Shown piece after piece: positions 30,476 through 63,830 of a DNA stretch of 64,000 bases. The notes below the pieces were generated by a model. The model was given only the letters and a program-made list of their open reading frames with translations. It had not been told where the DNA came from and did no database searches. Source of the stretch: Porphyra umbilicalis (taxonomy: Eukaryota > Rhodophyta > Bangiophyceae > Bangiales > Bangiaceae); contig KV919105.1 of NCBI GenBank assembly GCA_002049455.2, positions 1 to 64,000 of the forward strand, written 5' to 3'. Positions within the stretch are counted from its first letter, which is position 1. Each line of letters opens with the position of its first letter. A program made the position numbers and the translations under genes.

Positions 30476-30976
30476 TGTAGCGGTCGGGGGGTCCTGCAGC
30501 TGGCAAGGAGCGCGGCCCCTCAGCTGTGGACAGCCCACCCCCGGGGGCCGTCCCAAAATATCCCGATCCGGGCCTGCAAGGGAATGACCTGTCCAGATCT
30601 CGGGGAGATTGGATTCGGTCGGGGGGCGGGGCTTTTCCTCAGTGGTTTTTCCAGCCACCCTACTTCTTGTTTGAACTTTTTGCTTTGGAGGGATTTATCG
30701 GTTTGGCGCATTTGGGGTGGCTACTTTGGCCACCGGCGTTCGGGCTTGGGAGGGGTTTATTGACAGTTGAGAGGTCGTCCCCGTCGCCGTTTGATAAAAC
30801 CAACTGTGCTTTCGACTACGATTCCCCCTTAGGCTTTGCCGTGATCCTATCCTCCCGTTGGGGGAAGGCTGGGCTGTGGGTCGATTTCTGGGGCAGTTCC
30901 TTCGACGGACCGAGCTGATCAAGAGGTCACTTCGGCGGGTCGACGGAACAAATTGGTGGTGCTGAAAACCGCTACA
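30476..30976 (+). mobile_element. Gypsy G1 3' LTR (501 bp)
   Basis: It begins TGTAGCGGTCGG and ends AACCGCTACA, mirroring the ends of the LTR at 10652. Copia B Gag resumes immediately after it. Confidence 0.93.
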
Positions 30977-31713
30977 ATCTTGCCGCAGTGCCGGTAGCTG
31001 GACGCATCCTTTCGCGGCGGCCCACGGGAGGAGCTACCGCCTCCCCCTCGGGGACGGTGTAAGGTAGGCGTCGTCTGGCGGGCGATGTGCTCTGCGTACG
31101 TGACGACCATCATGGCGGCCTGCCGCGACGACTTGAGCAGCGAGGCGCCCCCCGACAAAGCACGCAGGGCGGTTGTGATGGGGGTGATCCCGTTCCTACC
31201 TCGCATGGCGTGCACTGCGGCTGTGGGCACCATCGACGCATGCGGGTTGGCGTCCAGCCCCGCCTGGTCTAGTACGATGGCGCCGGCCGTCTTGGACGAC
31301 ATTGAGTCGCCGTTGAGGGTGCACTGCGCTAGCGACTGGCCGATGGCGGCGAAGTACGCCTCCATCGTGCGCTTTTCGCGGTAGAGCGTCTTCAAATGGC
31401 GGCACGCGTCCTGCCCCCGCTTGAACTCGCTGCCGCCGAAGGCGGAGCGCAGCATCTGCGGGAGGGTGTCATGGCCCGACGCCGTCATCAGGTTGGGGAC
31501 CGGAATGATACGTGCCGCCTCCCTGGCAACGCCCCCCAACGCCGTCCGCATCACGCCTTCCTTCTTATCGTCAGGCAGCGTCGTGGGGGGGTCTCCGGTC
31601 GGAGGGGGAGGGCAGGTAGTGAAGTTATGGGAGAGTTGTGGTGCGCGGTGGGTGGCGGTGTGTTGCCGCCTGCAAGCAACAGACGCAACTGTTAAGTTGG
31701 GCGAGGTGGCCAA
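30977..31713 (-). pseudogene. gag: Copia B Gag, N-terminal part
   Basis: An open frame of about 245 codons runs to the gypsy border. It shows VPNLMTASGHDTLPQMLRSA, ACRHLKTLYREKRTMEAYFA and LKSSRQAAMMVVTYAEHIA, a helical copia-type Gag. A Pro/Gly linker and SSYRHCGK, the proximal half of a zinc knuckle, follow; the first Cys of CCHC is Tyr. The rest is at 10651-10487. No ATG is placed confidently near the 5' end; the first Met in frame after the leader is in EGVMRTALGG. Confidence 0.75.
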
Positions 31714-37299: not shown

Positions 37300-37850
37300 C
37301 CGGGCGTGTCGCCCACTTCAGCTGACAGCCCAGTGCGAGCAGGACTGAGACCAGTAGATCTCGTCCTCCGCGCCATTTCGAACCGCTGGCAAGTCCATTG
37401 CGAAATCATAGTGAATCGCAGCATCTTTTGACCCTATCTTGATCCCTGAACGATGGCCCGACGGTCCAGATCACAGGCCCGTTCTGGGTCGGTCGACGTC
37501 ACATGATCAAATTTGTGACGATCAGAACGCAAGTGTCGACCCGACGCCGGCGTCGTCCATTCGGACCACGTCGCCGCCGCGATCCGCAGCCCCCCCACCC
37601 CCCCCCCCACCGCCGACGCCGCCGTCGCCGCGGCTGCGGCCGAGGCGTCCCCCCGATCCCCCCCTCCTGCCGCCCCACGCTCCCCCCCGCCCCCCCCCCC
37701 CCACTCCTGTTCCAATCACTTCTGTTTCTCGTCTCGTCCTGCATTCGTTTTTCTTTCTTTCTTTTTCGTGGGCCATCTGCCTTGTTCTTTGGGCTGTTTC
37801 TCTGTGTCGTAGATAAACACACACGCTGCTCCTGTTCTTTTTTGTCTTGG
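37300..37850 (+). repeat. Long inverted repeat, left arm (about 550 bp)
   Basis: It runs from CCGGGCGTGTCGCCCACTTC through a C-rich low-complexity block (37588-37702) to TTCTTTTTTGTC. The right arm at 38108-38656 is its reverse complement, with a spacer of about 257 bp. Frames seen in the C-runs are artefacts. Confidence 0.9.
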
Positions 37851-38107: not shown

Positions 38108-38656
38108 AAAACGACAAGAAAAAAGAACAGCATACGTTTATCTCAACGACTCGAAGGGACCGCCCACCGAACAAGGCAGATGACCCACGAAAAAGAAAGC
38201 AAGAAAAACGAATGCAGGACGAGACGAGAAACAGAAGTGATTGGAACAGGAGTGGGGGGGGGGGGGCGGGGGGGAGCGTGGGGCGGCAGGAGGGGGGGAT
38301 CGGGGGGACGCCTCGGCCGCAGCCGCGGCGACGGCGGCGTCGGCGGTGGGGGGGGGGGTGGGGGGGCTGCGGATCGCGGCGGCGACGTGGTCCGAATGGA
38401 CGACGCCGGCGTCGGGTCGACACTTGCGTTCTGATCGTCACAAATTTGATCATGTGACGTCGACCGACCCAGAACGGGCCTGTGATCTGGACCGTCGGGC
38501 CATCGTTCAGGGATCAAGATAGGGTCAAAAGATGCTGCGATTCACTATGATTTCGCAATGGACTTGCCAGCGGTTCGAAATGGCGCGGAGGACGAGATCT
38601 ACTGGTCTCAGTCCTGCTCGCACTGTGCTGTCAGCTGAAGTGGGCGACACGCCCGG
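38108..38656 (-). repeat. Long inverted repeat, right arm
   Basis: Reverse complement of 37300-37850. It ends at GCCCGG directly before the 32-bp direct repeat that opens Copia C. The spacer holds an A13 run near 38031. Confidence 0.9.
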
Positions 38657-47102: not shown

Positions 47103-47529
47103 CTCTTTTGGCGCGTTCACACCAGATCAGGCCACGCCGGAGACTGTCCGGATCCTGTCCGCGTACATCTCCAACAGTAGCCCAATGTAGCCCCCGCTGG
47201 GGCGTAAGTCCACGCTTGTTTCAGCGGCGCTATCGGGACGCCACCCGGACCCAATCAGCGGCCGCCACGCGCAAGCGAATTGGAAATATTTTTAGAATTC
47301 CTACCGCTCTTGTTTGAACCGCCCTTAGTTCACAAGATGCTTCCTTACTTATATTGGAATGTTCATCGCGAGAACTTTTTCTCGAACTTCGTAACGAAAC
47401 ACAGTGGTCACTGTTCCAGCACCCCCGCAGTAAAGTGGTACGCATTCCCGACGTTGTTGACAGCGGTTGCTTGCGAAATCTACATACCAGTAGTCACCTC
47501 TGGAAGAGATGAGGAGCGAAGCTCCCTAT
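47103..47529. other. 3' flank of the Fanzor gene
   Basis: No protein gene. In Fanzor and TnpB systems the guide RNA usually overlaps or follows the nuclease 3' end, so this segment (read on the minus strand) and the last codons are where such an RNA would be sought. I could not define one. Confidence 0.25.
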
Positions 47530-50020
47530 TCATACCCCACGAGATGAACCTGGTGAACAGTCTACGATTACCCGCTCGAGGCGGCTCGAAGACGAGTGGC
47601 TGCGCCCCACGGCTGGCGCGGGGCTGGCAGCAGCCATCTGGCCGACGCTACTCGTCGCCAGGGCACCGCTTGCCGACGCAGCAGCTGCGTCGTGCGCCAC
47701 GTCTGCCACCACACCCAGCGCCTCTACCTGCACCCTTGGCGCCGCGACTGGCACGGCCGTGGGGGCCGTCCCGGCCTCCGCGACCGCCGGGGTCATCCCG
47801 GCCTCCGCGACCGCCGGGTCGGTGACGACTGGTCGGCGCCAACGCTCCCATGACGTGGGTGAACACCGCGTCCACCTGTAGCCGGCCTCGTAGGTTCCCG
47901 CCGCGATCGCAGCCGCGTGCCGCGTCGCCTGGATTGGGTCTTCCTTGGGTGCAGCGCGTGACACGGTGTACCCCCGGATTTGGAGGCAGATGCTCCGACC
48001 CTGCATGCTCCTGATGGCAATCTTGGACATGTTGCGCGCCGCGTTGGTGTCTCGCCCGACGTCCGTCGCGGGACACGCGACGTTGGTACACAGCTTGACC
48101 CCCCACAGCGCGAGCGGGTCGGTCCCAAACGCCCACTAGCCGTGAGCCGCAATCGCCTGCAGCACCTTTGTCCGCACCGCCTCTGCGTGCTGCTTGGCGC
48201 GCTGGGCAGCCGCACCGTCGCGTGGGCCCGACCGACTGCCGGTCGTCACACCCCGTCGCGCGCGCCGGCCGCCGCGGAGGGGCGAGGCGCGCTTGGCCGC
48301 CGACGCTGACGCGGGATGCGCCTAGCTGCTTGCCGCCTTGAGGGGCGTCAGGTCGACCGGCGAGTCGGGCGACACGTACGTGTTGCACAAGCCGTGACCG
48401 CACGCGGCGCACGTCTGGCTCGTATTGAGCTCGTCCACGTACACGATGTGCACGTGTTTGTCCATGCGCCGCACGAGGTCGACGCTGCCGGCGCGCGGCC
48501 GACACCGCCCAATGCCCAGCACCGCTTTGGTACCGTCCACCGTGCGCCGCAGGAGCCCACCCGTCATGCGGTGGGCCAACTGCGCCGCGTACCGGTTGCG
48601 CTGGATGAGGGCGTGCAGGCGCGCCTTTCGCCGGCCCGACATCACGGCCGCCCCGTACGCCGCCTGATAGGCGTCTGTGTAGGTGCGGGCGATGCGCGAA
48701 GTGGCCGCCACCAGCCACGCGCCCTACGAAGCGACTTTGAGGGAGCACCCGGCCGTCAGTGACTCGCGCGACACGTCGGGGTTGGTCGCCGCCCACGCCG
48801 CCGCCGCTGCCGCCTCGGCGCACCTGGTCATACCGGCGCCCGTCGCCTCGCGGTACGCGCCCTTGGAGACGACCAGCGTCGCCCCCGCCGGCGGGACGCG
48901 GGCGCTCGGTCTCGTGGTCGTGGCCGCACTCCAGAGGGCGGCACACAGTACCCGTACGCGGTCTGCCGACGGAAGCGGCGTGCCAGGCACACCATGCTGC
49001 GGGAGCTCTGTCGGCGCAGCGGCGTCGGCCGCAGCCGCTGCGCGCTTTGCGTTGCGCGCTGACGCCGCCGCCTGTTTCGCGGTGCGCGCCGCGCTGTGCC
49101 GCACGCGCGCAGCGTGTCGCTGATCCCCGACCGACAGGGCGTAGCACGCCGCCTCTGCGTTGGCCGCCGACTCGGCCTTGGCGCCTGCGTCGGCTGCCGC
49201 GTCGGTCGACGACTTGAACAGGGCCGCCTCGCCCATCCACACACACACGTGATTGGGGAGGCGCCACGGTTGGACGCCGCCGTCAATGACCGCGGCGTGA
49301 GTGAGCGCGCGCAGGCGCGTCTGCAGCGACCGCCGGCCGTCGAGGCCGCTCGTCCCTCGCTTGCGGGCGACCTCTTGCCGCTGGACAGGCGTCAGCCACG
49401 CGTCGCCGTATGACGGCTGCGTGTACCGCGGCGGCTTGGGCGGGTCAGGGGGGGGGGGGGCTCCAGCGCAGCGGCCGGCTCCGTCGCTACGTGCTCCAAA
49501 GGCAGCAAAGACGCCTGCGCCGCCGATGTGGCCGCCGTCGGGCCCACCAAAGCTCCACGACTCTGCTTTGGGGGAGATCCCTCCGCCCCGGTCGACGCGC
49601 CGAGCGCGCCACGGCCGCGCTTTTTGGTCGTCCCGCACACCGCGTCACCGCCGCCGACGGGTAGGCCCGCCGCGGTGGCCTTGGCCGCGGGCGCAACCTC
49701 GGTCACCGTTGCACGCAGCGTGTCGACGTTCGGCAGACACTGACCGCTGCGACGCACGTGGCACTCTGCAGCTGCGGTCGCGGCCGTGGCCGCCCGCGGG
49801 AGCGCGTCGGCTGCAATCCGCAGCGCCCGATACGCCTGGCACACGTGTAGGTGCGGTGCCGTTGAGAGCGCAAACGGCACTGCGCCGGGGCAGTAGGCAG
49901 CGACGATGGACGCGACGCCCGGGTCCAACCCGACAAAGACGAGCGCCTTGACAGCGTCGGGCGCAAACGCCATGCGGTCGAGCTGCGTCCGCACGCTCGC
50001 CGTCTCGGTCGGAACCCCCC
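47530..50020 (-). pseudogene. Fanzor/TnpB-type nuclease: RuvC and zinc-ribbon half
   Basis: The RuvC-I strand VFVGLDPGVASIVAAY has its Asp at 49923-49925. After an Ala/Pro-rich insert and a frameshift in the G-run at 49449-49461, the frame continues with YGDAWLTPVQRQEVARKRG and SKGAYREATGAGMTRC. RuvC-II is IVYVDELNTSQTCAACG (Glu at 48430-48432), which also starts the zinc ribbon. The second Cys pair and RuvC-III are in LCTNVACPATDVGRDTNAAR (Asp at 48049-48051). So the D-E-D triad and C-x2-C...C-x4-C ligands are all present. In-frame TAGs lie at 48724, 48322 and 48136; the last two fall in the poorly conserved insert between the Cys pairs. An Ala/Val-rich C-terminal extension ends at 47530. 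Family members are RNA-guided DNA endonucleases of eukaryotes related to transposon TnpB. The spacing between RuvC-I and RuvC-II (about 500 residues) is longer than usual. Confidence 0.88.
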
Positions 50021-50979
50021 CCCGCGGCCGTCACTGGCCGCCTTGCGGTTCGCCCGCCGAGCGGCCGCCTTCGACGTGGCAGTGGCGGGGTGTCGTATCG
50101 TATAGTGCACGCCGACGCCGTTTGACACGATGAAGGGGCCAACGAGCTTCGAGGCGCGGATGATGCCCGCACGGCGGAGCAGCGCCTGCACGACCAAACC
50201 GTCGGCCGTCTGTGGTTGGATGGACCCCAAGTGGGCCGCCAGACTCTGGCGGAGAAGCATGCCGCTGACGCGCGCGTACGCGGTGCACGTAGCCACTCGA
50301 CAGGGTGACATGTCAGCCGCCTTGATGCCGGCGCCGACGCACAGGGCCTGGGCATAGTGCAGCAACGGGTAGACGTGCATTGGCCGCTGTCGCAGGGCCA
50401 AACGTGTCTAGGTGCAGCAGCTAGCGCCGCCGACCGCCGACATCCGTGTACACGAGCACGCTGTCGTAGGCCAGCGTCGCGGCGGCCGCCATGGCAGCCC
50501 CATGCGCCGCAGACACTTTGTTCGCCAGCCACTTGAACGACGGCGGGCGCGTGCGTCGGCGGCTTGCAGGCCGGCAACGAGGACCGCAATCAGTGCCGGG
50601 CGGCGCTGTCTGTCGAGACCGCATGGGGCCTGCGGGTAGACCGCGAGGACGATGCACTTTACAATAGCCTTGACCGCCGACGTGACGTGCGTCACATAGT
50701 GATTTTCAAAGGACGTTGCGACGGTCGCCCAGCCGCCCGTGTCGGCCGGACACGGCAGCAGTGTGCTGCACGGCAGTTGCTCTGGCTCGATTATGGCCGC
50801 CGCCACTGCCGCCGACGCGGCAACAAAGGCGGTGTAATCACCGTCACCGGTTGCTGCCTTGACATCTTCACGTTGCTTGGCGTGCGCGCGCCGCCCCGAG
50901 CAAGAGACACACGCCCGCCGGGAAGCGCCGTCAAACGCGTGGACACCGCGACACGAGACGGTCGAGGCGGCCTGCTTCC
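50021..50979 (-). pseudogene. Fanzor-type nuclease: N-terminal helical/recognition part
   Basis: Right after the solo LTR the frame continues with GVHAFDGASRRACVSCSGRR and TSFENHYVTHVTSAVKAIVK, a helical segment like the N-terminal lobe of Fanzors. A frameshift near 50560 moves to PPSFKWLANKVSAAHGAAMA and LAYDSVLVYTDVGG. TAG (50421 or 50408, depending on frame) and a shift back lead to MHVYPLLHYAQALCVG, then KLVGPFIVSNGVGVHYTIRH, which corresponds to the TDGVSV-like strand before RuvC-I. A C9 run near 50012 marks the next frameshift. Confidence 0.75.
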
Positions 50980-51397
50980 TGTTGGACTGTGATGCTGGTC
51001 GCCGACTCCACTGGCGGTTCGCGGATGGATGATGGTCGGTGACCCATATGGTAAACCACATGGTAAATTTGCAAGACGTGGTCAAGTTGCACACATTCGT
51101 GTTGGGTGGTCTTGGGGCGTTACTTTTGGCATGTTTTGGATTTGATCTTCGCTTTGCTCTAGTGGCTTTTGATTTGGTGAGTGATTCGATTTGGTGCGAG
51201 GGCGTGGGCGTCGGTGTGGGCATGAGAGGGGGGAGCACTTGGGCCGGTGGGGACTATTTGAGAGGTGCTCTCGGTTGGGAGAGGCGGGCGAACCTTAGGA
51301 CAACCACCAAAGCACGTTCGCACACACACACACAAGCTCAAGCCACTGAACCACCTCACCGTGGTCCCCCAACCCCGATCCCCACTGCATTTCAACA
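50980..51397 (+). mobile_element. Solo Copia A-family LTR inside the Fanzor gene
   Basis: It begins TGTTGGACTG and ends TTTCAACA, matching the LTR at 6353-6771 in the opposite orientation. CTTCC flanks both sides exactly (50975-50979 and 51398-51402). No internal sequence remains, so a full element inserted and later recombined. LTR plus TSD is 423 bp, a multiple of three, so the host frame resumes in phase. Confidence 0.95.
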
Positions 51398-51402
51398 CTT
51401 CC

Positions 51403-52468
51403 ACGCCAGCCCGTGGCTGCCCGTCAGCGGCGCCGGCACGGCCGCCATAAACTCGTCGAGCGTGCGTCGGCCGCCGCCACCACCACCCGCACCCAGACCG
51501 CAGCCACCGCCGTCTACACCGTCGAGCAGATACCGCATCGTGCCGTCCATGACAATGGTGACGAGGCGCACATGCTGCGTCTGTGCCGTCGCCAACTCTG
51601 TCAGCGCAGCCGCGCCCGCCGCCGCATTGGTGACAGCCTCGACAGGCGCCTCGGTTTTGAGATGAGCCGAGGTGGTCGGCGGGCGTCCCGCTGTCGGCGC
51701 GCAGTCTGTGGGCGGCCGCGGGAGCTTTCGCCGCCAGACGGCAAAACACCGGTCGATCGACACGGCCACCGTTGTCGTCACCTCCCCCGTCATGCGGTAC
51801 TGGTCGGCGCACGCCGAGTAGCGGCCGCGGTCCTCATTGTGGTCCGACCAGCCGTTGGCGACGGCACGCAGCGGACACGCTGCGCTCGCGCGCGTGTGGC
51901 CCCGCGCGTGGCAAACACCGCACCTGGTACGGCCGCTGCCGGCTGTGGCGCCCTTGGCCGACCCGGCGGCCGCCACACGCGCCGCCTGCGCCTCCTTGGC
52001 GGCCGCGTCGGCTGCACACGATTTCACATTGTGTCTTGTTGTCCCGCAGCCGCCGCATCGGCGCAGGCGACCACGCGTGCCGCCGCCGCCGCTCGCCGGC
52101 GCGGCCCCTGCGCCGGCACCCGCGTCGTCGCCCGGGTGGTCCCCCGCGTCGGGCTTTGCCATGGAGATCAAGCCCTTGGCCGCGGACAAGACGCTAATTG
52201 CGGCGTGCCGGGCGCGCGCGCACAGGCGCCGACAGGCGACCACCGCGGCATTGTCGGCGGCTGTCGCAGCGCCGGCGGCAGCATCTGCCGCGCCGCCGTC
52301 CCCAGGGACGGCAGCAGGTGTTCGGTGCGGCGGCACGGTCACCGCGTCGACGGCTCGCTGCACTGCGGTCGAGGACGACTCGGCGTCGCCCAGCGCTGCC
52401 GACGCGCACGACGTGGTGCCCCGCGCGTGCACGGGGTTTCCTGCGAGCAGCTTGCCCAGCAGGGTGCT
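51403..52468 (-). pseudogene. Fanzor-type gene: N-terminal extension with two CCHC knuckles
   Basis: One open frame joins the Copia D border (STLLGKLLAGNPVHARG) to the solo-LTR border (APLTGSHGLAWK). It has CGGCGTTRHNVKSC (52016-52057) and CGVCHARGHTRASAAC (51875-51922), spaced C-x2-C-x4-H-x4/5-C like nucleic-acid-binding zinc knuckles. Later come YRMTGEVTTTVAVSIDRCFAV and a Gly-rich stretch. Zinc knuckles are typical of Gag and some transposases. Whether they were part of the same protein as the nuclease rests on the continuous frame through the LTR insertion. Confidence 0.65.
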
Positions 52469-52473
52469 CGCAT

Positions 52474-52871
52474 TGTGAAGTGAGCGGTAGTTGGGTGGAT
52501 GCGTTGCTTTACTCGAGAGCAGTCTGAGGCGCGAGGCCAGCTGGCTCTTAACCCCTCCGTGTGCCTCTCTCGCCACGTCCTGCCGGGGCACCCCCCGCCA
52601 GCGCAGTGCTCCCTCCCCTGGAGGGTACATGCTCTCACCACCCCACAAATCGCGACGCCTCTCGAGGAGCCCACGAGAATCTCCCCGAGCTCCGCTGCAA
52701 AGTGAGCTGCCCTCGAGATACAAGTACAAATAAATACATCACACACATACAGCAATGCATGTCAATGGCACAGCCAAACAAGCCGATGACCGCATAAGTA
52801 CTCCTGGAATTAGCCAGGCAGTCCGCGGTAACTCCGACTTACCTGCGCGGGCTTGGGGGGCTGCCTCAACA
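52474..52871 (-). mobile_element. Copia D 3' LTR
   Basis: On the minus strand it starts TGTTGAGGCAGCCCCCC and ends CTCACTTCACA. A purine-rich tract GGTGCTGGGGGGAG immediately precedes it (52872-52885), a good polypurine primer. Small plus-strand frames here are shadows. Confidence 0.97.
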
Positions 52872-53187
52872 CTCCCCCCAGCACCCCACAGTCCGCGCCA
52901 TTGGCGCCTCAGCGCGGTCACAACCCGTCCCGACCAGCGCGACATCTCCTGCCATCATCCGCAGTCGAGAAAATGCCAAAGTCGATCCCCAGGTTCCAGG
53001 TGTTGCACTTGCAAAATCGACCTTCGCCAAAATCACCAAAATCACGATCGATGTGAAGCAGACGTCGAGGTGAGTGCAACGCACTAGGGCGCGTCTCGAA
53101 CGGAGACGATCCGGCGCATCGGCGGCCCGTTAAAGTGCGGGCGTAAACGCATCTCATCGACTTTGCCGAAAATCGGCTCGACCCGTC

Positions 53188-53371
53188 GGAGCTGTAGGCC
53201 TACAGCTCCCTTAGCCAAAATCGGCCAAAATCGACTGGCACCAAATCGAGTCGGGCCCGACCGGCCGACTTGGCCCGAATCTGGAGACTTCCAGATTCGG
53301 GCCCAAGACCACAAAGAAATCGACTTCACCAAAATCGACTCGACCCGTCGGAGCTGTAGGCCTACAGCTCC
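53188..53371 (-). repeat. Copia D 3' UTR: paired palindromes and a strong hairpin
   Basis: A perfect 22-bp palindrome centred on AGGCCT (GGAGCTGT...ACAGCTCC) occurs at 53188-53209 and again at 53350-53371. Between them, 53272-53303 forms a 14-bp perfect stem with a GACT loop. The whole 780-bp untranslated region (52872-53650) repeats CCAAAATCGAC-like motifs. It may be an RNA structure used in packaging or transport, but this is conjecture. Confidence 0.85.
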
Positions 53372-53650
53372 CGGCCGAAATCGCCCAAAATCGACTTCGG
53401 CCAAATCGAGTCGGGCGATCGCCGCGAACCCGCGGCTGCGCCACCGGTCGGCCACAGTGGCGCCACAGCGCCCCAGGACGATCCCAACCGGCCGTCCCCC
53501 CAAGGCAACAGCGCCCCGTTGCCGGCCCCAAGCAAGTGGATGGTAGCGCAACCGTCCACGGCCGGCACCGGCCCGCAGCAAGGTCGACAGAGGTCGCTAC
53601 CGCGAATCCGGGGCTGCGCCACTGGACGCCTCCAGTGGCGACATGGCGCC

Positions 53651-56600
53651 TCAGCACTCCCCCAACAGGGGGTCGCCAATCCCGGCGCCCCGCGCAGCCG
53701 CGCCCAGGTCTTCACCAACCCCGACGGCAGCCCGGAAAGCCGTGAACGCCGGCGACGGCAGCGGCTTGGTGAGCCCATCCGCCGGCATGTCGGCGCTCGG
53801 GAGGAAGTAGAAGGCCACATCCCCGCGCGCCTGGTAGTCGCGAACCATGTGGTAGGCGACGTCGACATGCTTGGTCCGCCCCGTCGCCTCGGGATTGTTG
53901 ACCAGCGCCAGGCAGGACTGGTTGTCCTCCCCCATCGGCACAGCTCCGCCGTCGACGCCCAGAGCCGACAGCAGCTTGCGCAGCCACAGCGCCTCCTTGG
54001 TCGCCATCGCGGCGGCCACGTACTCGACCTCGGCCGTCGAGGTGGCAACGGTCGACTGGCGCTTGCTCGCCCACGCAATCGGCCCGCCATTGCAGGTGAA
54101 GACGAAACCGGTTGTCGACCGACGACCGTCGATGTCGCCGGCCCAGTCGGCGTCGACAAACCCTTGCAGCGGCTCGCTGCCGCCGTAGACCACCCCCAGG
54201 CGAGTCGTCCCGCGCAGGTAGCGCAAAACCCCCTTGGCCGCGCGCATGTGGTCCTCCTCAGGGCAGGACATGAAGCGCGACAGCACCCCCACGGCAAAGG
54301 CGATGTCTGGCCTCGTCGTGGTAGACAGGTAGAGGAGGGAGCCAACCAACTCGGCGTAACGGTTGCCTTCCGGCAGCAGGCCCTCCCCTGTCTTGGTCAG
54401 CTTGACCCCCAACGCCATCGGTGTCTTGTTTGGCGTCGCCTTGTCCATCCCGAACGCCTCCAGCAGCGTCGCGGTGTGCCCCGGGTTGCTCAACGTCAGA
54501 GTCTTGGCCGCCCGGTTGCGCATGACCTTCATGCCGATAAAGTCCTTGACCTCCCCCATGTCGCGCACCTCAAACTTGGCAGACACGAAGCGCTTGACGG
54601 CCTCGACCCCAGCCAGCCGCTCACCCGCCACGATAAGGTCGTCGACGTACACGAGGATAAAGATGCACCCGTGCACGGGGTGGTGCCACTCATAGAGGCA
54701 CGGGTCCACCTTGGAGCGGACCGCCCCCATCTCCTTGAGCTCTTTGTCGAGCTGGATGCCCCACAGCCGCCCTGCCTGCTTTGTCCCGTAGAGTGCCAGA
54801 TTTAGCCGACATATCTCCTCCAGCCCCTTCGGATCGACACCGTCGGGGAGTTTGATGTACATCTCCTTGTCCATCTTGGCGTTGAGGAAGGCTGTCTTGA
54901 CATCGACATGATGAACCTCCCAGCCCGTAGCTGCAGCCACAGCAAAGAGAGACCGTGTCGTAGCCGCGTTGGGCACCGGCGCCCATGTCTTATCAAAGTC
55001 GCGCCCCGGCACTTGGTTGAAACCTTGGGCCACGAGTCGGGCCTTGTAGCGCGTCATCTTTCCCTCCGCGTCGTGCTTGATGTCAAACACGAATCGCGTC
55101 TTGACGGCCTTGTGCTTCTTGTTGTTACCGTTGGTCTTGGACCAGGTGCCAAGGTTCTTGTGTGCCGCCACCTCCTCCGTAATGGCCTGCTTCCACAGCG
55201 GCCAGTCAGGACGAGCGCGCGCCTCCTTCTCGTTTGCAGGCGGTTTTTGCAAGTCCCAGCCCGCCTCAGCCGCGGACGCGGTACCGCTTGCCAGGTACGC
55301 TTTGGGTTCCTTCTCCCACCATGTTACCTTGGGCGCTGGCTTGCGCTTCGAGCGACGAGGCCCCGGTGCGACGCTGTCACTGGCCGCAGGTGCTTGACCG
55401 ACCCAGGGTGTCGAGTCACCGTCGCCGTCATCGTCCTCTTTCTCGCTCTCTTCAGCGAGGGAACGAGGACTGCCATCTTCGTCGCTTGTGGAAGTTTCGT
55501 CGGGGGTGTACTCGTCCCCGCGCCCGCCTTCAGCGTCGAGCATGTCCATTTCCCCTTCCGTGCCGTCGACGCTGTCGGCGTCAGCCTCCGCAGTTAGCCG
55601 GGGACCAGCGCTTGGCCCGACCGCCGACGTCTCGACCTTAGCCGGGTTCTCCTCCATCAGCACGTCTCGACGCTCGGAGACTTCGTTCGTCTCGTCCTCG
55701 AGGATGCGGTAGGCCTTGCCACCGACAGTGTAGCCGACAAAGCGGCCGACGTCGGTCCTTGGCTCCAGCTTACGCTGCTGCTTCTTGGGTTTGAGCGCCC
55801 ACGCCCGACTCCCCCAAACGCGGAATCCCGCGACGTTGGGGCGTCGACCCGTTAGAGCCTCCAGCGGCGTCACGTCCAGCCCCGCCTTGGGGGACCGGTT
55901 CAGAACATGAACGACGGGGGCCAACGCCTCAGCCCACAGCTCTTCCTCCGCTCCCGCATCGAGCAGAGCAGCACGCACGCGCTTCATCAGCGTGCGGTTC
56001 ACCCGCTCCGCTTTGCCGTTCTGCTGTGACTTGTACGGCGCCGTCATCTCCGACGTGATGCCCTTGTCCTCGTACCATGCCTTGAGGTCGTTAGTGACGT
56101 ACTCCTTGGCACCATCATGACGGACGCGCTTGACCTTGACCCCCGTGAGCGTCTCGAGCTGCTTAATACGCGTCCTGAGCACGTCAGGGGCCATCCCTTT
56201 TGTCTTGATAGGCGTAGCCGTGATGAACCCCGTTGAGTCCTCCAGCGCCGTCATAAAGTAGAGGGAGCCACCCAGCGACTCAGTGAGTGGGCCACCAATG
56301 TCGGTGTGCACCACTTCGCACTTGGTTGTCGCTGTAGACGAGCGGGGGCTCGGCGACTGAACCATCTTGCCGTCCACACACGGCACACACACAGTGCCAA
56401 TGACGCGCTTAGCGTCTGCCACTGACGACGGCATGCCGTCGACCATTGTGGCCGCCCGCTTGAGGTTCTCCAACCCCAAGTGGTTGAACCGACGGTGCCA
56501 CAGCTCCGCCTCCCCAGCTATGCGCGTGGATGCCGCGTTAGCCGACGCCTGGACCGGCGTTACCTTGAGCACATACTGCTCCAGGTCGTTCACCTTGCCG

Positions 56601-57829
56601 ACCACCGTCGCCTTGTCGAGCACCCCGCTGAAGCGAACAGCATCCCCGTCGCTGAGGATGTAACAGGCGATGTTGACAAACACCACCGCACCTCGATTGC
56701 GGTCGACCGCTCGAACCGACAGCAGGTTGCTGGTCAGGTTCGGAACGAGCATGGCCTCCCCTAGCACCATGCGCGTCTTGGTTTTGCCCTTGCCAACGTC
56801 CATGGAGACGTGGCCGTGCCCCTTGATGGGCACCTTATCGCCGTTGGCCAAGGTGACCTCGGCCCCGCTTCCCGCCGTCCGGACGGTGAAGCCCTTATTC
56901 CCGGCGGCCATGTGGTTGGTTGCACCAGAGTCGAGCACCCAAGTTGATGACCCCAGGGTGCTCCCGTGAGCCTTGCTGCTCCCGGTATTGCCAGTAGAAG
57001 CAGTGTAGGCCAGAGCGGCACCTGCGTGGGGCCCGCCGCCGTGGCCGCCTTCACGACCACCACCGCCGGGCTTGCCCTTGCCCTTGGCCTCGTCCGCCTT
57101 CTTCTTGTAGCAGTCGCGCTGCATGTGCCCCTTCTTGTTGCAGTAGAAGCACACGACCGACTTCTTGTCGAACGGCTTCTTAGGCGCCGCTGCCGCAAAG
57201 GCTTGTGGCTTGACACTGCCAGAAGGCTTGGAAGCGCCGACAGAACTGCTTCGCTGCTCGACTTGAAGCAGCTTAGCCGTCACGTCCGACATGACGAGCT
57301 TAGTGTCCTTGTTCTCCAACACCGTCCTGAGCATCCCGTACTCTGCCGGGAGCCCTGCCAGGACACGCAGCGCAAGCGTGTTGTCGTCCACCGGGTTTCC
57401 GAGCATGGCGAGCTCGTCCCGGAGCATCTTGGCGCGCGACGCAAACTTGATGATGTTCTCGTCGCCGCCCTTCTTCAGGCTGCTCAGCTCGTCCATGAGC
57501 CGCAGCAGCTGCGCGTTGTCTCGCGCCTCGAACATGACCTTGAGCGCGTCCCACGCCTCTTTGGCCGTGTCCACCGAAGTGACCGTGTTGAGATGCACGG
57601 GCTTGACCGACATCTGGATGGTCGCCAGCGCCGCCTCGTACATGGCGTCCCACGCGTCGACCACCGGGTCGGACTTCTTGTCGTCGGACGAAGATGCCGG
57701 TCGGTCCGTCACGACCGCCGCCCAGAGCTTCTCCTTCTTGAGCTGCGCACGCAGGTACGCTGTCCACACCTTGTAGTCGTCGTCCAGCTGCGCAAACCGC
57801 GGGCCGCCATAGCGGCCGTGGTCTGCCAT
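53651..57829 (-). CDS. gag-pol: Copia D Gag-Pol polyprotein (1,392 aa), intact
   Basis: I chose the ATG at 57829 (MADHGRYGGPRF). An in-frame ATG at 57982 lies inside the primer-binding site and would add 51 residues. Gag of UBN2 type covers residues 1-200. The zinc knuckle is CFYCNKKGHMQRDC (227-240) and the protease WVLDSGATNHM (about 297-307). Pre-integrase and integrase have WHRRFNHLG, VCVPCVDGK, VVHTDIGGP (about 508), RHDGAKEYV (about 572) and NGKAERVNR (about 607). An acidic linker follows. RT has VDVKTAFLNA, LALYGTKQAGRLW and LVYVDDLIVAG (about 1,060); RNase H has GFVDADWAGD, SKRQSTVATSTAEVEY and HVDVAYHMV. All expected catalytic residues are present and there are no stops. It encodes every enzyme for copia replication. 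Confidence 0.97.
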   Translation of the reverse strand: MADHGRYGGPRFAQLDDDYKVWTAYLRAQLKKEKLWAAVVTDRPASSSDDKKSDPVVDAWDAMYEAALATIQMSVKPVHLNTVTSVDTAKEAWDALKVMFEARDNAQLLRLMDELSSLKKGGDENIIKFASRAKMLRDELAMLGNPVDDNTLALRVLAGLPAEYGMLRTVLENKDTKLVMSDVTAKLLQVEQRSSSVGASKPSGSVKPQAFAAAAPKKPFDKKSVVCFYCNKKGHMQRDCYKKKADEAKGKGKPGGGGREGGHGGGPHAGAALAYTASTGNTGSSKAHGSTLGSSTWVLDSGATNHMAAGNKGFTVRTAGSGAEVTLANGDKVPIKGHGHVSMDVGKGKTKTRMVLGEAMLVPNLTSNLLSVRAVDRNRGAVVFVNIACYILSDGDAVRFSGVLDKATVVGKVNDLEQYVLKVTPVQASANAASTRIAGEAELWHRRFNHLGLENLKRAATMVDGMPSSVADAKRVIGTVCVPCVDGKMVQSPSPRSSTATTKCEVVHTDIGGPLTESLGGSLYFMTALEDSTGFITATPIKTKGMAPDVLRTRIKQLETLTGVKVKRVRHDGAKEYVTNDLKAWYEDKGITSEMTAPYKSQQNGKAERVNRTLMKRVRAALLDAGAEEELWAEALAPVVHVLNRSPKAGLDVTPLEALTGRRPNVAGFRVWGSRAWALKPKKQQRKLEPRTDVGRFVGYTVGGKAYRILEDETNEVSERRDVLMEENPAKVETSAVGPSAGPRLTAEADADSVDGTEGEMDMLDAEGGRGDEYTPDETSTSDEDGSPRSLAEESEKEDDDGDGDSTPWVGQAPAASDSVAPGPRRSKRKPAPKVTWWEKEPKAYLASGTASAAEAGWDLQKPPANEKEARARPDWPLWKQAITEEVAAHKNLGTWSKTNGNNKKHKAVKTRFVFDIKHDAEGKMTRYKARLVAQGFNQVPGRDFDKTWAPVPNAATTRSLFAVAAATGWEVHHVDVKTAFLNAKMDKEMYIKLPDGVDPKGLEEICRLNLALYGTKQAGRLWGIQLDKELKEMGAVRSKVDPCLYEWHHPVHGCIFILVYVDDLIVAGERLAGVEAVKRFVSAKFEVRDMGEVKDFIGMKVMRNRAAKTLTLSNPGHTATLLEAFGMDKATPNKTPMALGVKLTKTGEGLLPEGNRYAELVGSLLYLSTTTRPDIAFAVGVLSRFMSCPEEDHMRAAKGVLRYLRGTTRLGVVYGGSEPLQGFVDADWAGDIDGRRSTTGFVFTCNGGPIAWASKRQSTVATSTAEVEYVAAAMATKEALWLRKLLSALGVDGGAVPMGEDNQSCLALVNNPEATGRTKHVDVAYHMVRDYQARGDVAFYFLPSADMPADGLTKPLPSPAFTAFRAAVGVGEDLGAAARGAGIGDPLLGEC

Positions 57830-57972
57830 GTTGACGACCTCGGCGCCGCACAGCGCCGCACTAACGACGTAGGGAGCAGAACACGCCCGCCCGACGCCGG
57901 AACACACCGCGATCCCAGCCACGTCGTCTCGCCAGCGACCGCAGGGAAGACGACGGTTACCACCAGCGACAG

Positions 57973-57986
57973 CTGGGCCCATAACC
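57973..57986 (-). other. Copia D primer-binding site
   Basis: GGTTATGGGCCCAG starts directly at the 5' LTR border, the half-initiator-tRNA-Met type. Confidence 0.9.
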
Positions 57987-58384
57987 TGTGAAGTGAGCGG
58001 TAGTTGGGTGGATGCGTTGCTTTACTCGAGAGCGGTCTGAGGCGCGAGGCCAGCTGGCTCTCAACCCCTCCGTGTTCCTCTCTCGCCACGTCCTGCCGGG
58101 GCACCCCCCGCCAGCGCAGTGCTCCCTCCCTTGGAGGGTACATGCTCCCACCACCCCACAAATCGCGACGCCTCTCGAGGAGCGCACGAGAGTCTCCCCG
58201 AGCTCAGCTCCAAAGTGAGCTGCCCTCGAGATACAAGTACAAGTAATTACATCACACACATACAGCAATGCATGTCAATGGCACAGCCAGACAAGACGAT
58301 GACCGCATAAGTACTCCTGGAATTAGCCAGGCAGTCCGCGGTAACTCCGACTTACCTGCGCGGGCTTGGGGGGCTGCCTCAACA
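57987..58384 (-). mobile_element. Copia D 5' LTR
   Basis: 398 bp, minus strand TGTTGAGGCAG...CACTTCACA. It would carry the element's promoter; no obvious TATA box was singled out. The target duplication CGCAT lies at 58385-58389. Confidence 0.97.
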
Positions 58385-58389
58385 CGCAT

Positions 58390-59218
58390 CTCGCAAGGGG
58401 CCTACCGGCCCCACTTCGCCGGCCGCTTCGCACGCGGCGGCGGAGGCGGCGACTTCGACCGTCGCGGTCCGCACGGCAGATGCGGCACATTGTCGCGCGG
58501 CGTCTACGTGGCCGCCGGCCTTGATGGCCGCGTCCCCGCGGATCGCACCCAGACGCGTGACGGCGTCGTCACGGTCGAGGTCCTTTTCGACGGGTCCGTC
58601 GACGGGGCCGTCCCCGCCGCCGGCGTCCCCACCGCCACTCCCACTAGCTGTCTGCAGGGCGAGGTCGATCCCTGGTGCTGACGGGGGGGGCACCCCGCCG
58701 GCCACACGGGGGTCGTTTGGGACACTCGCCGACGGCGCGGGGCGCGCGGGGACGCGCCCCGTTGCTTGTTGGCGGCTGTCGGGGGCAACCCCACCAAACA
58801 GAGGGAGCAGACAGCCGTGGTCGCCGATAATCGCCGAGGCACGAGTGTCGTCGCCGGGACCGCCCGCAGCACCGACTCTGGTGGTCGCGGCCATGGCCCG
58901 TGCACTGCCGCCAGCGGTGGCCCCGCCCGCGGGCCCGTTGCCGTCTGCCACACCCGCCCGTGCGCCATTGCCGCTGCCAGCACCACCGCCCGCCATCATG
59001 GCTGACCGCCGCGCCCCGGTGCGGCCGCGACGCGCTCGCAGCGCCGTCGACGTGCCGGGCGCCTCCTCGTCGTCTGTGGACGACACGTCTTCTGCGTCGG
59101 TGCCGGCTGTCGCCCCAATGCCTTCCAGCGGGACAGTGCCGCACGCACCGGCGCCGTTATCAGCCGCGCGACGCGAGTGTTCGCTGCTTGCGACGGACGG
59201 GGGTGCGTCCACGCGCAT
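58390..59218 (-). pseudogene. Fanzor-type gene: N-terminal low-complexity region
   Basis: The ATG at 59218 opens a 276-codon frame (MRVDAPPSVASSEHSRRAAD) running to the Copia D target site. It is rich in Gly, Ala, Asp and Arg with no recognised domain and probably disordered. The frame joins exactly to 52468 after removal of Copia D, which links it to the zinc-knuckle part. Whether this is the true N-terminus depends on an unverified start. A TTTTAAAA element lies about 390 bases upstream (59605-59612). Confidence 0.55.
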
Positions 59219-60749
59219 GGCGTCGTTCCGGCGAGCACGGGCGTGTCCGCAGACACCCGTCGCGTCAGGGACGCGGGGAGTGGGGCCCTGTCGAACAAAC
59301 TCTCACACACCAGGGTGTGTCGCCTGCCCCAGAGGCGTGCGGGCAATGTCACCTGGGTCGGCCATACCCCAACGTACCGCGCGCCGTACAGGCGGGGGGC
59401 ACCACGGCGCGTGACACCGTCTACCGGCCGGGGTGGGGGAGGGGGGCCGGCGGGGGCGTGCGGCTGCAGCCGCGCTCAACAATGGGGGGGCGGCGCGCAC
59501 GAGACGCCCTGCGCCGCCGGCACGCGCGGCGGCGGGGGGCGTCGGCCCAGTGTGCGCTGTTGCGCCTGCTGGTGCCGCTCATCGGTCCCGGTCGGTGGCG
59601 CTTTTAAAAGCACGCGTACGGATGCCGGCGGCACGAGCGACATGGTAGACGCTGCGACACGACACGGTACGGAACACGACGGGGTGACCAACGGGGGCGC
59701 GGCACCCATTGCGCTGTTGCGCAGCGGCGTGCCGAGATCGAAGCGGTGCGCCACCAGCCGCGCGCACGCACGTGGTCTTTGCGCGGCGCTGGGGCGGCTG
59801 CAGGCCCCACACTGCACGCCTATACGGGGTGCCCGATGCGGCGCGTCGCCCAAACAGAGGCAGCGGCGGCCGACCGGCGTCCGTGACAGTGTGCACGCGA
59901 CAGGGGCGCCACCGACGCGTTGGGTGTGGCTACAAACGAGTAAATTGTGTCACACATTGGACCGACAGTGTAGGAAGTATGAGTTGGCGCCGGGAGGCTC
60001 TGGGATGCTCGTGTGCGTGTCGTGGGGCCGTTCGCACCGTGCGGTAGGGTCGACGGCTGCGCCCGTCCACGTGCCCGTCCTGTGGTGGTACCGTCATTCC
60101 CCGTTGATCAGACACCCCTGCGGGGTTGCTGCCACACCCGTTTGAGACGGCTTCTTTTTCCCAGGTCGTCGCCGAAAGGGCCCTGCCTGGTACAACCAAT
60201 GGCAGTTGGGGTGTGCAGCAGTCGCCAGACCGCCTGGCATGGAGCGAGAAAGTGCCTCGATCGCCAATCTGTGGGTGACTGTCGGCCGCCTCGCTTGAGT
60301 GATACAGTCAATCCCCGACCTTGTCACAACCGCTGAAGGCCCAGGTGGGCCTTTAACGAGTCGACCGACGATCGCCCCCAGAGAGGCGATCAAGGCACAT
60401 TGTCCCGTCGCGCAAGGCTCTGAGCTCCATTTCAGAGACCGACCCGCATTGATCGCATCAGGAGGGCAGCTTCTGGTCACGATTGTTGGTGAAGAAGCCT
60501 TCAGCACTGGCTGTGGCAATAGTGCTGGCAGGTGCAATTCGTGCCGTAGGGGTGGGCCATTATCGAGGATTGACTGTATGTGTCTGTCGGCGACGAGGCA
60601 CGCGGCGGGTACTGGCTACGGTGGTGTACCGAAGAAGGGGGGTGGGGGGTGCACTGCGCAGGGCGCGCCCCCACCGGCAAGGACCCAAACAGCGCCGTCG
60701 CGTCGACCGGGGCAGACAAGGTGTCCGCCACGTGATGCCCCACGGCGGC
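59219..60749. other. Region upstream of the Fanzor gene, no recognised gene
   Basis: It includes GCTTTTAAAAGC at 59603-59614, a palindromic TATA-like element usable on either strand. Longer frames on the plus strand (59177-60145) lack any recognisable domain. AT-richer DNA follows 60150. Confidence 0.4.
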
Positions 60750-60995
60750 GCGCGCCCCGCGGGCGGGGGCACGATGTGCGCCCGCGCGCGCCTATAAAAG
60801 GGGTGCGTCGCGGCCCGCAGCTGCGTCGCGTGGGTGCCGGGCAGTGGCGTCGCCGGGTGGCTGCACGGCGCCGCGTGCCCCGCGGGCGGGGGCCCGACAT
60901 GCGCCCGCGCGCGCCCATAAAAGGGGTGCGTCGCGGCCCGCCGCTGCGTCGCGTGGGTGCCGGCCAGTCGCGTCGCCGGGTGGCTGCACCTGCGG
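60750..60995 (+). promoter_or_regulatory. Two 123-bp units with TATAAAAG-type boxes
   Basis: GCCCCGCGGGCGGGGGC, then CTATAAAAGGGGTGCG at 60792-60807 and CATAAAAGGGGTGCG at 60916-60930, with a shared GTCGCGGCCCGC...GTCGCGTGGGTGCC tail. GC-boxes followed by a strong TATA motif suggest a core promoter reading rightward. The unit is duplicated in tandem, with a partial third copy of the 3' part near 60965. No gene is recognised directly downstream. Confidence 0.55.
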
Positions 60996-61911
60996 CGCAC
61001 CAGCTCCTGCTGCCTTTGCGGCGCACCAGCTTCTGGCCCCGTGTCTTGGGCCGGATCGTCCCTGTCCCTGCGCCCGTGGTGCGGTGGTTGGCCGCGGGGC
61101 GACCGGTGCGTGGCTTGATGTTTTTTCTAAAGTACCGTTGTTATCGGACTTCGTTTTTCAGATTCTGGGTGGCACCCCCCTGACTTGCTCGTACACGCAA
61201 GTGTCTGCCAGGGTCGTGCGTCACAGCGACGACATTCGTGATTGACATGGTGCACCCTCGTTGAGGGTATCTCCCAGTTCTATATCACCCAGATATAAAA
61301 CTGGAGCGTAGCACACCGGATATTGGTTGTCCACTGTAGCGCTCATCGAAATATGTGCGTATGCCGACCTTCAGAAATCGTTGACAGGCTATGAAACAGT
61401 GTGTGCGGTCGAGATTTCGATACATCAAGAAACGGTTGGATCTGTGTACGGTATCGCGGCGCGACGAACCGTGACCGCGGCGTACGCGTACGACTGGCAT
61501 TGACGCGAGTGGGTGTCTGCTGCTGGTCTCTCGACGGTGCCCAAGAAGAACTGTGTCACACCTGCCCGGCGCACTGTCGTACCCCCCCGCAACAGGCCAC
61601 ATACCGGGGGCACCGCGGTTCCAGAAGGAACGGTCATGTGGATCGGAAATCTTTTCGCATCCCGTGATTCCATTGGTCCACGTTTGCTACATGGTTATTG
61701 CCACCACTCTGCAACTGCCGCCTTTGGCGGGTCAGCGTGTAATGAATTTTGTTTCTCCAACCAACCGCCCCACACTCTGACGGGGTTCAAGGGCGAGCAC
61801 ACGTTGTCATGGAGGCAAAAGCCGAGCGACATGTTCGAGTACATCCCAGTGCAACGCAAACCGCCAAACTACTCTAATGGTACTTGGTCCCAAGTGTACT
61901 TCAAGGGACTG
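60996..61911. other. Region between promoter-like repeats and LRR gene
   Basis: A plus-strand frame (61513-61912 and beyond) contains TLTGFKGEHTLSWRQKPSDM and NGTWSQVYFKGLL, less biased than chance frames, but no family is recognised and no good start is seen. It could be an exon of an unknown gene. A near-duplicated AGATATAA motif lies near 61290. Confidence 0.3.
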
Positions 61912-62769
61912 CTACGCGCAATGGTGGAGCGGGCCGACTTGCCGTCCGGTGGCCTTGTGCGTGTCGGGCGCCGCACCGTTTGCGCTCGCGGCGTCGCGCG
62001 CGCGCGTCGCGTTCTTTGCACCGCCCGCGTCGGCTGCCGCTACCGTCGCGACCCCGCCGACGTCGTCAGCGGGCGACGCTTCGTCCGCATATGTCCGACG
62101 AGGCACCGGCGGCAGGTCCTGGAGCGACTGCAGGGGCGGCGGTGGCGGTGTCGGTGGACGCGTCGGACCAGTGTGCCAACGGCGTATAGTGGCCGCAGCC
62201 GCCCAGGCGGGGTCCTCGCAAGCCGGGTTGTGGCGCACGTCGACGGCCTGAACGGTCGACGGCACAGCCGAAACGGTGGCGACGGTGGTGAGCACGTTGT
62301 TGGACAGATCCAACACTACCAGGCTCGGCACGCCCCTGCGTGTCAGAGCCGCGGGCCACCCTTGCAGCCGGTTGTTGGACAGGTTTAGGACAGCCAGTTG
62401 CTTCATGGGCGCTGTCGGCATAGTCGCGACCGTCAGCCCACAGTGGCTCAGCCGCGCGTGCTCGAGCGTGGGCGCGAGCGCAGCCAGCACGGCCGTGGGG
62501 AAGTCGTCCAATGGGTTGTGGGAAACGTCCAAGACGCGCACACGCCACTGCGCTTTCATTGCCAGCCAGCCGACATCTCGGATGCCGTTGTGGTGCGCAA
62601 AGACGCCCCACACGGGCGCGCCCGTCGACCGCAACAGCTTCTTGATGGCCTGCACCACCTCGGCCCGCACGGCAGACGACTCCTTGATCCCCATGAGGGA
62701 GATGATCCACTTGCGCTTGCGCTCTCGAATCTGTCGGACCATTGTGCCGGCGACTTCGTCCGTATCCAT
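61912..62769 (-). CDS. Leucine-rich-repeat protein (285 aa)
   Basis: The ATG at 62769 (MDTDEVAGTMVRQIRERKRK) is the first in a frame open to the TAG at 61912. After a basic helical start and IISLMGIKESSAVRAEVVQA, four to five LRR units follow: VRVLDVSHNPLDDFPTAVL, LEHARLSHCGLTVATMP, LAVLNLSNNRLQGWPAAL, LVVLDLSNNVLTTVATV and VQAVDVRHNPACEDPAW, matching LxxLxLSxNxL. The C-terminal 80 residues are Pro/Ala-rich. There is no signal peptide or membrane segment. LRRs bind proteins; the partner is unknown. A GCTACTTAAAC element about 165 bases upstream could serve as a weak TATA box. It shares orientation with the Fanzor gene. Confidence 0.75.
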   Translation of the reverse strand: MDTDEVAGTMVRQIRERKRKWIISLMGIKESSAVRAEVVQAIKKLLRSTGAPVWGVFAHHNGIRDVGWLAMKAQWRVRVLDVSHNPLDDFPTAVLAALAPTLEHARLSHCGLTVATMPTAPMKQLAVLNLSNNRLQGWPAALTRRGVPSLVVLDLSNNVLTTVATVSAVPSTVQAVDVRHNPACEDPAWAAAATIRRWHTGPTRPPTPPPPPLQSLQDLPPVPRRTYADEASPADDVGGVATVAAADAGGAKNATRARDAASANGAAPDTHKATGRQVGPLHHCA

Positions 62770-63239
62770 CACACGGGCAGAGGCGTCGGCCGTGACCGCG
62801 TCCGCACGATGTGGGGGGCGCGCGACGCCAGACGGGTCGGCCGCGAGCAGCACACACACGCCGAGTGCGGCCGGCGCGCGACCACACGCGCAACGGGCGG
62901 CGGGCGACCCCCGACGGGACCTGCCGACGCCGTTTAAGTAGCCGCGCGGGTGCGCACAGGCCGGCACCGGTCAGACGCAGTGGCAGCGCGCGCGCACACG
63001 CGCCCGTCCAGACGCGTGAGTGTCGCTCAAGTAGCCGTGAAGGTGGGCGGCCGCCGGCGGCACCGCTCCCACCAGATCACACGTGGGCCGTCCCAAGTGC
63101 GACACCGTCGCGCATCCAACAGCGCGGGTGCTGACACAGCCCGTCCCCGGTGCACGTGGGTGGGAGTGGCTTCAGCGCGCGCGACAGAAGGGGTGAACGG
63201 CAGCGCTGGGGAGTGACCACGCACACACTGAGGGAACTC
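62770..63239. other. Upstream flank of the LRR gene
   Basis: No gene recognised. AAGTAGCCG occurs twice (62935-62943 and 63030-63038), in a GC-rich setting. An A11 run at 63260 precedes the satellite. Confidence 0.35.
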
Positions 63240-63830
63240 ACCGCACACGGGGGTTTCCAAAAAAAAAAAGACCCCCCACACCTCGGACGGCCACTCTGGG
63301 GCGTCTGCCGCGCACCCACTGACAGTCGGGCCCTGCACCACAATCCAATGGAAAACCTGCCAGAGTTGACTCTGGCAATCTCTGAGGTTTTACGGAAGCC
63401 TGGGGGGCGACATCTTCAAAAGTCGACGCCATTCTCCAGACGAGGGTTTTCACAAGAAAAACGACCCCCCCCACCTCGGACGGCCACTTTGGGGCGTCTG
63501 CCGCGCACCCACTGACAGTGGGGCCCTGCACCACAATCCCAAGGAAAACCTGCCAGAGTTTACTCTGGCAATCTCTGAGTATTTACGGTAGCCTCGGGAG
63601 CGACGTCTCCAAAAGTTGACCCCATTCTCCAGACGAGGGTTTCCACAAGAAAAACGACCCCCCCTACCTCGAACGGCCACTCTGGGGCGTCTGCCGCGCA
63701 CCCACTGACAGTGGAGCCCTGCACCTTAATCCAATGGAAAACCTGCCAGAGTTGCCTCTGGCAATCTCTGAGGTTTTACGGTAGCCTGGGGGGCGACATT
63801 TTCAAAACTTAACCAAACCTGCGCACCATG
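63240..63830 (-). repeat. 193-bp satellite, inverted copies at the right end
   Basis: GGCCACTYTGGGGCGTCTGC recurs at 63289, 63482 and 63675, a period of 193 bases. Each unit has CAATCCAATGGAAAACCTGC and the palindrome TGCCAGAGTTGACTCTGGCA (9-bp arms), the reverse complement of the core in the array at 1-585, followed by a GTTTTACGGNAGCC block. The rest of the unit differs from the left array, so the two arrays share only a conserved core of about 70 bp. Confidence 0.9.

Follow-up and report, generated by a model that had tools for sequence, protein, structure and literature searches.

A decayed gene for a probable giant Fanzor-type nuclease in Porphyra umbilicalis and its multigene surroundings

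The gene in the window and its insertions

The stretch analysed comprises 64,000 nucleotides of contig KV919105.1 from the red alga Porphyra umbilicalis (C345:1-64000, the window in the following). It carries a decayed gene on the minus strand (47530-59218, insertions included). The gene is followed at its 3’ side by two hairpins with a sharp boundary and is preceded by further sequence that recurs in other copies. Judged from sequence, this arrangement is likely an inactivated copy of a gene for a very large RNA-guided nuclease of Fanzor type, located at the right-hand end of a multicopy mobile element with several genes.

Two insertions interrupt the reading path. The larger one is a Copia long terminal repeat (LTR) retrotransposon (52474-58384, minus strand, pol frame 53654-58021), which has LTRs of 96.7% identity over 399 bp. 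It is flanked on both sides by the target site duplication (TSD) CGCAT. The smaller one is a solo LTR (50980-51397, strand unassigned) with the TSD CTTCC and a relative of 94.5% identity at window position 6353-6771. Both 5-bp TSDs are perfect, and the paralogues L009, L011, L012, L013 and L015 run uninterrupted through both insertion points. Hence, empty sites exist elsewhere in the genome, and the two insertions are as the original prediction, made from the letters alone, had described them.

The same prediction held that removal of both insertions joins a single minus-strand reading path of about 5.35 kb. The length stands: it agrees, together with the ATG at 59218, with L009 read from the corresponding Met (1,775 codons). 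The single open frame does not, as tblastn with the L009 paralogue splits the window copy over three frames, with five main stretches containing 2, 0, 1, 4 and 3 internal stops. The copy is thus dead for more than one reason, frameshifts and stops adding to the two insertions. Across the whole window, tblastn placed nuclease stretches only between 47 and 60 kb.

Three motif blocks lie on the minus strand in the order that had been claimed. The RuvC-I block GLDPG (GWDPG in paralogues) is located at 49917-49931. In the RuvC-II block VDELNTSQTCAAC (48400-48438), Glu precedes the first CxxC by six residues. The second zinc pair (Cx4C) and the RuvC-III block with its RD, CTNVACPATDVGRDTNAAR, follow at 48034-48090, whereby the window copy is one residue off the RuvC-III pattern. 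Close to the N-terminus a weak CCHC zinc knuckle is predicted below cut-off (51863-51931, minus strand, PF15288, E 0.0041).

Gene family and Fanzor/TnpB signature

The genome (83.8 Mb, 665 contigs) was searched with the RuvC-II fragment of the window copy. Of the 65 matches obtained, 47, among them that of the window itself, cover at least 130 of the 133 residues. Three of these 47 near full-length matches lie in frames of more than 1,400 codons, namely 1,921 in L009, 1,660 in L010 and 1,458 in L011, which provides open paralogues of the kind that was to be looked for. The encoded proteins have 1,775 amino acids (aa) in L009, counted from the Met matching window position 59218, and 1,636 aa in L010, counted from the first Met. 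Fanzor1 proteins are given as mostly 600-700 aa (PMC11423790) and up to ~800 aa (PMC10711439) in the cited parts of these papers. The gene is thus indeed far longer than typical Fanzors, as had been noted from the window alone, and, judging by its reading frames, the protein exceeds the described ones more than twofold in length. If true, this would more than double the known Fanzor size range.

In the paralogues the motif order within a single frame is GWDPG, then DEHNTSQTCAECG (DEHKTS in L010), then CTNVAC and GRDTNAARN. In L009, L010, L011 and L014 a single frame holds DPG, the Glu that precedes CxxC by six residues, and RD; in L013 the three blocks do not share a frame. All nine rows of alignment A1, where RuvC-II reads E-HNTSQT-CAEC, retain Glu, RD and all four Cys. 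The RuvC-I, RuvC-II and RuvC-III patterns were found in 14, 17 and 15 of the 18 loci scanned, respectively; a missed pattern may reflect a fetched stretch that is too short or an altered block. L008 and L012 are one copy fetched twice.

Selection was evaluated by the ratio of nonsynonymous to synonymous substitution rates (dN/dS). L009 and L010 show a dN/dS of 0.354 over the whole frame (1,649 codons), with 0.24-0.47 in eight of nine sub-windows and 0.76 in the last 110 codons, which hold very few changes. The long spacers hence belong to a protein under selection. The other nine paralogue pairs, several with broken frames, range from 0.41 to 0.67. In several copies the frame is lost near the same proline-coding homopolymer run (around L010 residue 1030), so that some of the breaks may be effects of assembly or slippage.

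With a GC content of 64% in the window and an abundance of long chance frames, the motifs might be accidents of GC-rich pseudo-reading frames. However, none of 5000 shuffles of the L010 protein matched the relaxed ordered motif, and the dN/dS is 0.35; a chance origin is next to negligible. Among 151 stop-to-stop frames of at least 400 aa from the window and from loci longer than 3 kb, six carry the relaxed ordered motif, all six being members of this family.

Profile searches point to the same protein family. PF07282, the zinc ribbon of TnpB, Fanzor and Cas12f, matches nine of nine A1 members at E ≤0.1 (best 6.1e-8). On a piece of L010 it scores 27.8 bits, above the gathering score of 26.3, and it remains below that score on the window fragment alone (E 2.6e-4) and on the full-length frames. 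PHROG transposase and PADLOC Cas12f models gave weak matches at the PF07282 block, as did the TnpB model of NCBIfam. None of the profile matches spans the whole RuvC domain. The profile search proposed as a check thus gave a match of the expected kind, and together with the three blocks sharing one frame it supports the original assignment to Fanzor/TnpB.

A narrower explanation is that the protein retains only a TnpB/Cas12f-like zinc ribbon and serves another role, e.g. nucleic-acid binding, the RuvC triad being convergent or non-catalytic. It is favoured by the PF07282 match, which covers just profile positions 16-37 of 60, by the absence of a whole-domain match in profile and sequence searches, and by the very long spacers. 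On the other hand, the three RuvC patterns recur in most of the 18 loci and selection acts across the whole protein. We consider this explanation improbable, and a Fanzor-type nuclease remains our preferred reading.

Several observations nevertheless count against that reading. L012, fetched over the entire gene, lacks the RuvC-I block. The NCBIfam model guided_TnpB matches far under cut-off (E 0.012-0.087) and does not match the relative P0003. Solved Fanzor or TnpB proteins were not matched by sequence, phmmer yielding chance matches only, and a profile search reached Cas12f only at E 2.1. AlphaFold2 returned a predicted local distance difference test score (pLDDT) of 32 on a relative without RuvC-I block. 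In L010, moreover, RuvC-I and RuvC-II are 497 residues apart, compared to at most 275 in the published motif, and the zinc pairs are separated by 103 residues, the second pair being Cx4C. Given the missing match to a solved Fanzor and the low pLDDT, it is the motifs, their order and selection, and not a fold, that speak for a complete RuvC site. What we take as established from sequence comparison are the conserved D, E, D and Cys residues and the selection on the protein.

The cited parts of the Fanzor literature allow a closer comparison. Fanzors show DPG at RuvC-I, and in RuvC-II a Glu that lies six residues ahead of the first CxxC (PMC10711439). The motif of PMC3627910, D-X(125,275)-[TS][TS]-X-X-C4 finger-X(5,50)-RD, is matched by the present family in order and residues. 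The spacer of six residues before RD lies inside the 5-50 range, the first spacer (497) outside of its range. The C4 finger search pattern of PMC10711439 has two CxxC pairs 12-18 residues apart and does not fit here, where a Cx4C forms the second pair and 103 residues separate it from the first; zinc-finger-domain insertions are reported there in some Fanzor1. The family thus shares with Fanzor1 the DPG, the Glu shifted to just before the zinc finger, the RD, the association with mobile DNA and the multicopy state (PMC3627910, PMC10711439, PMC10432273, PMC11423790). It differs by its 1,636-1,775 aa, longer spacers, weak N-terminal CCHC knuckles and multigene surroundings. Because of its size, and because the 497-residue spacer and the 103-residue gap between zinc pairs fall outside of the published motif, we use the term Fanzor-type for what on sequence is a divergent giant variant and do not certify it as Fanzor1. 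With Cas12f and TnpB the family has the PF07282 zinc-ribbon block in common, but it resides in a eukaryotic genome, has a repositioned Glu and is far larger.

Protein searching, in one run of which the best 7,985 candidates by word sharing were scored, returned four close relatives (P0001, P0003, P0004, P0005) and no distant ones. In IMG/VR nine stretches fit a pattern, none of them being a relative. The only red-algal Fanzor found in the open-access PMC literature, as far as the retrieved text goes, is that of Cyanidioschyzon merolae (CMe, table in PMC3627910). It is likened here solely as a Fanzor of a red alga. No comparable multigene element was found in the same text.

The right end

The 44 bp 3’ of the stop codon (47486-47529, minus strand) fold into two hairpins and end in CTACTGGT at a sharp boundary at 47486. 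They form the right end of the element and possibly a guide-RNA scaffold. A probe of the last 100 bp gave at least 40 genome matches, from 100 candidates. In all 20 loci inspected among the matches listed, homology breaks off after CTACTGGT at an identical base position, and 28 distinct flanks were counted among 31 loci. Inverted copies of the right end were not found in the six upstream stretches tried.

A role of this end as RNA scaffold is weakened by the modest stability of the hairpins against shuffles (z -1.2 to -2.0; -1.0 for 130 nt). Furthermore, the hairpins show no compensatory changes, and one pair is broken in one of seven sequences. In 21 nuclease-bearing copies the fourfold-site diversity drops from 0.10-0.17 at -1300 to -940 to 0.03 in the last 220 bp, and diversity over the 44-bp untranslated region (UTR) is 0.0195. 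An equally low fourfold-site value (0.027) is found at -700 to -580. The low 3’ value hence does not single out the right end and was dropped as a sign of RNA. An overlapping RNA or a transposition end could account for it, but exchange between copies could do so just as well.

The unit might also be a Helitron2-like element mobilised in trans, in which case the 3’ hairpins would be a terminator and not an RNA scaffold. Fanzor1 genes are known in Helitrons, and terminal hairpins are described for Helitron2, according to the cited part of PMC3627910. The present genome does hold Helitron Rep matches above cut-off (27 of the 28 listed). However, none of the 28 listed Rep matches falls on the eleven contigs with linked genes (C5, C8, C25, C31, C33, C60, C88, C232, C272, C345, C363). 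Moreover, the right end is not CTRR but CTACTGGT, and bases other than T also occur at the first flanking position. A Helitron2 origin therefore seems a poor fit.

Seven of 20 right-end loci share only their last 109-121 bp with nuclease copies. Gene-less “ghost” elements were considered as an explanation and rejected, since six of the seven carry one and the same inserted retroelement. L025 and L036, which are not among the seven, are also short; contig ends truncate them, and they match along all of their length. One retroelement occurs in the nuclease 3’ UTR at nearly the same spot in L073 (275-8409), L074, L020, L022, L023, L026, L012, L016 and L017, the copies being 89-98% alike. By eye it has a frame like that of a reverse transcriptase, for which Pfam gave no reverse transcriptase match. 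In L073, 87 bp of target preceding the retroelement are repeated on its other side. Possibly it is a site-specific non-LTR element aimed at the nuclease right end. The right end of L031 (C129:88840-88939) has 109 bp of homology and is joined upstream to unrelated sequence other than this retroelement.

The upstream genes and a putative giant element

Upstream of the nuclease gene the window continues with sequence common to copies, all of it on the minus strand. The stretch 59219-61190 contains a 123-bp tandem repeat (60741-60998). It is followed by a leucine-rich-repeat (LRR) gene (61912-62970, PF12799, E 1.5e-9) with ten matches to a 121-bp probe, and by a 193-bp tandem array (63247-63807) with further shared sequence up to 64000. 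Beyond the window the contig carries an Ulp1-like protease gene (C345:64937-65965), a DndB-like gene reaching to 70231 and a ParB-like gene (C345:76604-77590).

Counted from the right end, the gene order is nuclease, LRR gene, Ulp1-type protease, a long frame without domain match, DndB-like gene and a 194-bp array. Beyond the array, on the opposite strand, follow a ParB-like/N6-adenine methyltransferase gene and then AAA ATPase genes (PF00004). PF02902 identifies the Ulp1-type protease above cut-off in the C60 copy and below it in C345, and the DndB match is weak (E 0.018). The methyltransferase part matches PF01555 in the C5 copy (E 1.6e-13), with DPPY and DLFMGTGTT. Residues 852-1081 of this copy resemble the phage DNA methyltransferases of phrog_67 (E 2.9e-17), which share these features, but here the domain is part of a eukaryotic multicopy unit beside a Fanzor-type gene. 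The ParB-like label is our assumption from a short motif, with no Pfam match. PHROGs and PADLOC matched only the methyltransferase and the AAA proteins among the other element proteins.

The order is recurrent. With a distance limit of 20 kb, Ulp1 is linked to a nuclease gene in 14 of 18 loci, ParB/methyltransferase to Ulp1 in 11 of 25, and AAA to ParB/methyltransferase in 18 of 26. All linked cases are on the same strand, divergent and on the same strand, respectively. For these counts, the 65 nuclease matches were merged by hand to 55 loci, with two short fragments dropped. For Ulp1, 25 matches were merged to 18, with five short pieces dropped, and for ParB/methyltransferase 33 were merged to 24, to which C272, absent from the matches listed, was added from its methyltransferase frame (counted in 11/25 and 18/26). 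AAA matches below 90% identity were excluded (14 of 40 among the matches listed). For C274, C5 and one of the C232 copies, which have other copies close by, the nearest-neighbour rule points to the unexpected side. The ParB/methyltransferase gene lies ~20 kb from the right end on C25; on C363 the distance is ~22 kb and on C60 ~31 kb. Including the second AAA gene the C60 unit measures ~40 kb, at least 8 kb of it array.

From this linkage we infer that the genes from nuclease through AAA move as one element. The alternative is that the nuclease gene and the sharp right end form a mobile unit of their own, while the upstream genes are nested repeats or exchanging modules and no giant element exists. 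It can draw on several observations, which at the same time burden the single-element reading. Neither a left end nor a transposase was found, AAA-region sequences also occur in contigs without the remaining genes, and subfamilies diverge just upstream of the nuclease gene. On C5, C8 and C33 the gene order is kept, yet similarity amounts to just 30-46% for the Ulp1 and ParB proteins, compared to 84-92% for the nuclease fragments and 91-93% for the AAA DNA. The middle and the two outer parts thus have different histories. Probably modules are exchanged between units, and the unit, as far as its sequence tells, is a mosaic, which weakens the single element and strengthens the modular alternative. 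A further point against the single element is the C25 methyltransferase, which has DIPW in place of DPPY (PF01555, E 1.1e-12). The modular alternative, however, has to face strand relations that are constant in every linked case counted, even with strongly diverged middle genes, so that recent segmental duplication is no explanation. On balance, a separate nuclease unit appears unlikely, though it deserves to be taken seriously.

Candidate left ends at C345:61190, at C345:70231 and at the 194-bp array were each exceeded by further copies. A telomeric setting of the AAA region was considered and rejected, since both of the contig starts inspected hold a dispersed repeat.

If the genes do travel together, a mechanism can be sketched by analogy with the guide RNAs of Fanzor and TnpB. 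An RNA that intact copies transcribe across the right end could use as scaffold the terminal hairpins, possibly together with the final portion of the open reading frame, and as guide the host sequence directly beyond CTACTGGT. Since flanks differ between most of the copies examined, every copy would direct the nuclease to the empty site that corresponds to it. The nuclease would cut the matching empty site, and repair would copy the element back, resulting in retention or homing. The methyltransferase may mark DNA to be spared, be it for protection or marking. The scaffold and guide scheme is modelled on what the cited parts of PMC10432273 and PMC11423790 give for Fanzor and TnpB.

More tentatively still, and with rather more doubt than confidence, we propose an undescribed class of giant eukaryotic element of ~20-40 kb. 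It would combine an RNA-guided nuclease with a ParB-like/N6-adenine methyltransferase, an Ulp1-type protease and AAA ATPases and would propagate itself by restriction-modification-like homing. The nuclease would cut unoccupied sites chosen by the flank, and the methyltransferase would mark the DNA that is spared. Should the nuclease indeed belong to a mobile unit of several genes, a DNA methyltransferase among them, the benefit of Fanzors to their carriers becomes directly testable. Moreover, natural copies by the dozen, mostly with differing flanks, would be at hand for testing the guide source of a eukaryotic RNA-guided nuclease. The Spu-1 Fanzor elements of Spizellomyces similarly comprise dozens of full-length or partial loci in a single genome, but, in the cited part of PMC10432273, each is a ~2.1-kb single-ORF locus with inverted repeats, whereas here the upstream stretches tried held no inverted copy of the right end.

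A second, partial copy of the unit lies at window position 1-5078 on the plus strand. It comprises the 193-bp array, the DndB-like gene and the next long frame and is ~95% identical to L052 (1-4679). In L066-L070, ~85 bp of the unit’s far-left sequence resemble the sharp end of another dispersed repeat present in many contigs. Elsewhere in the window, an inverted repeat of ~520 bp has arms of 97.5% identity (37300-37818 and 38136-38656). The blocks 10648-17094, 18378-26490 and 26934-30978 are repeated and 77-95% alike, with frames that by eye seem retrotransposon-like.

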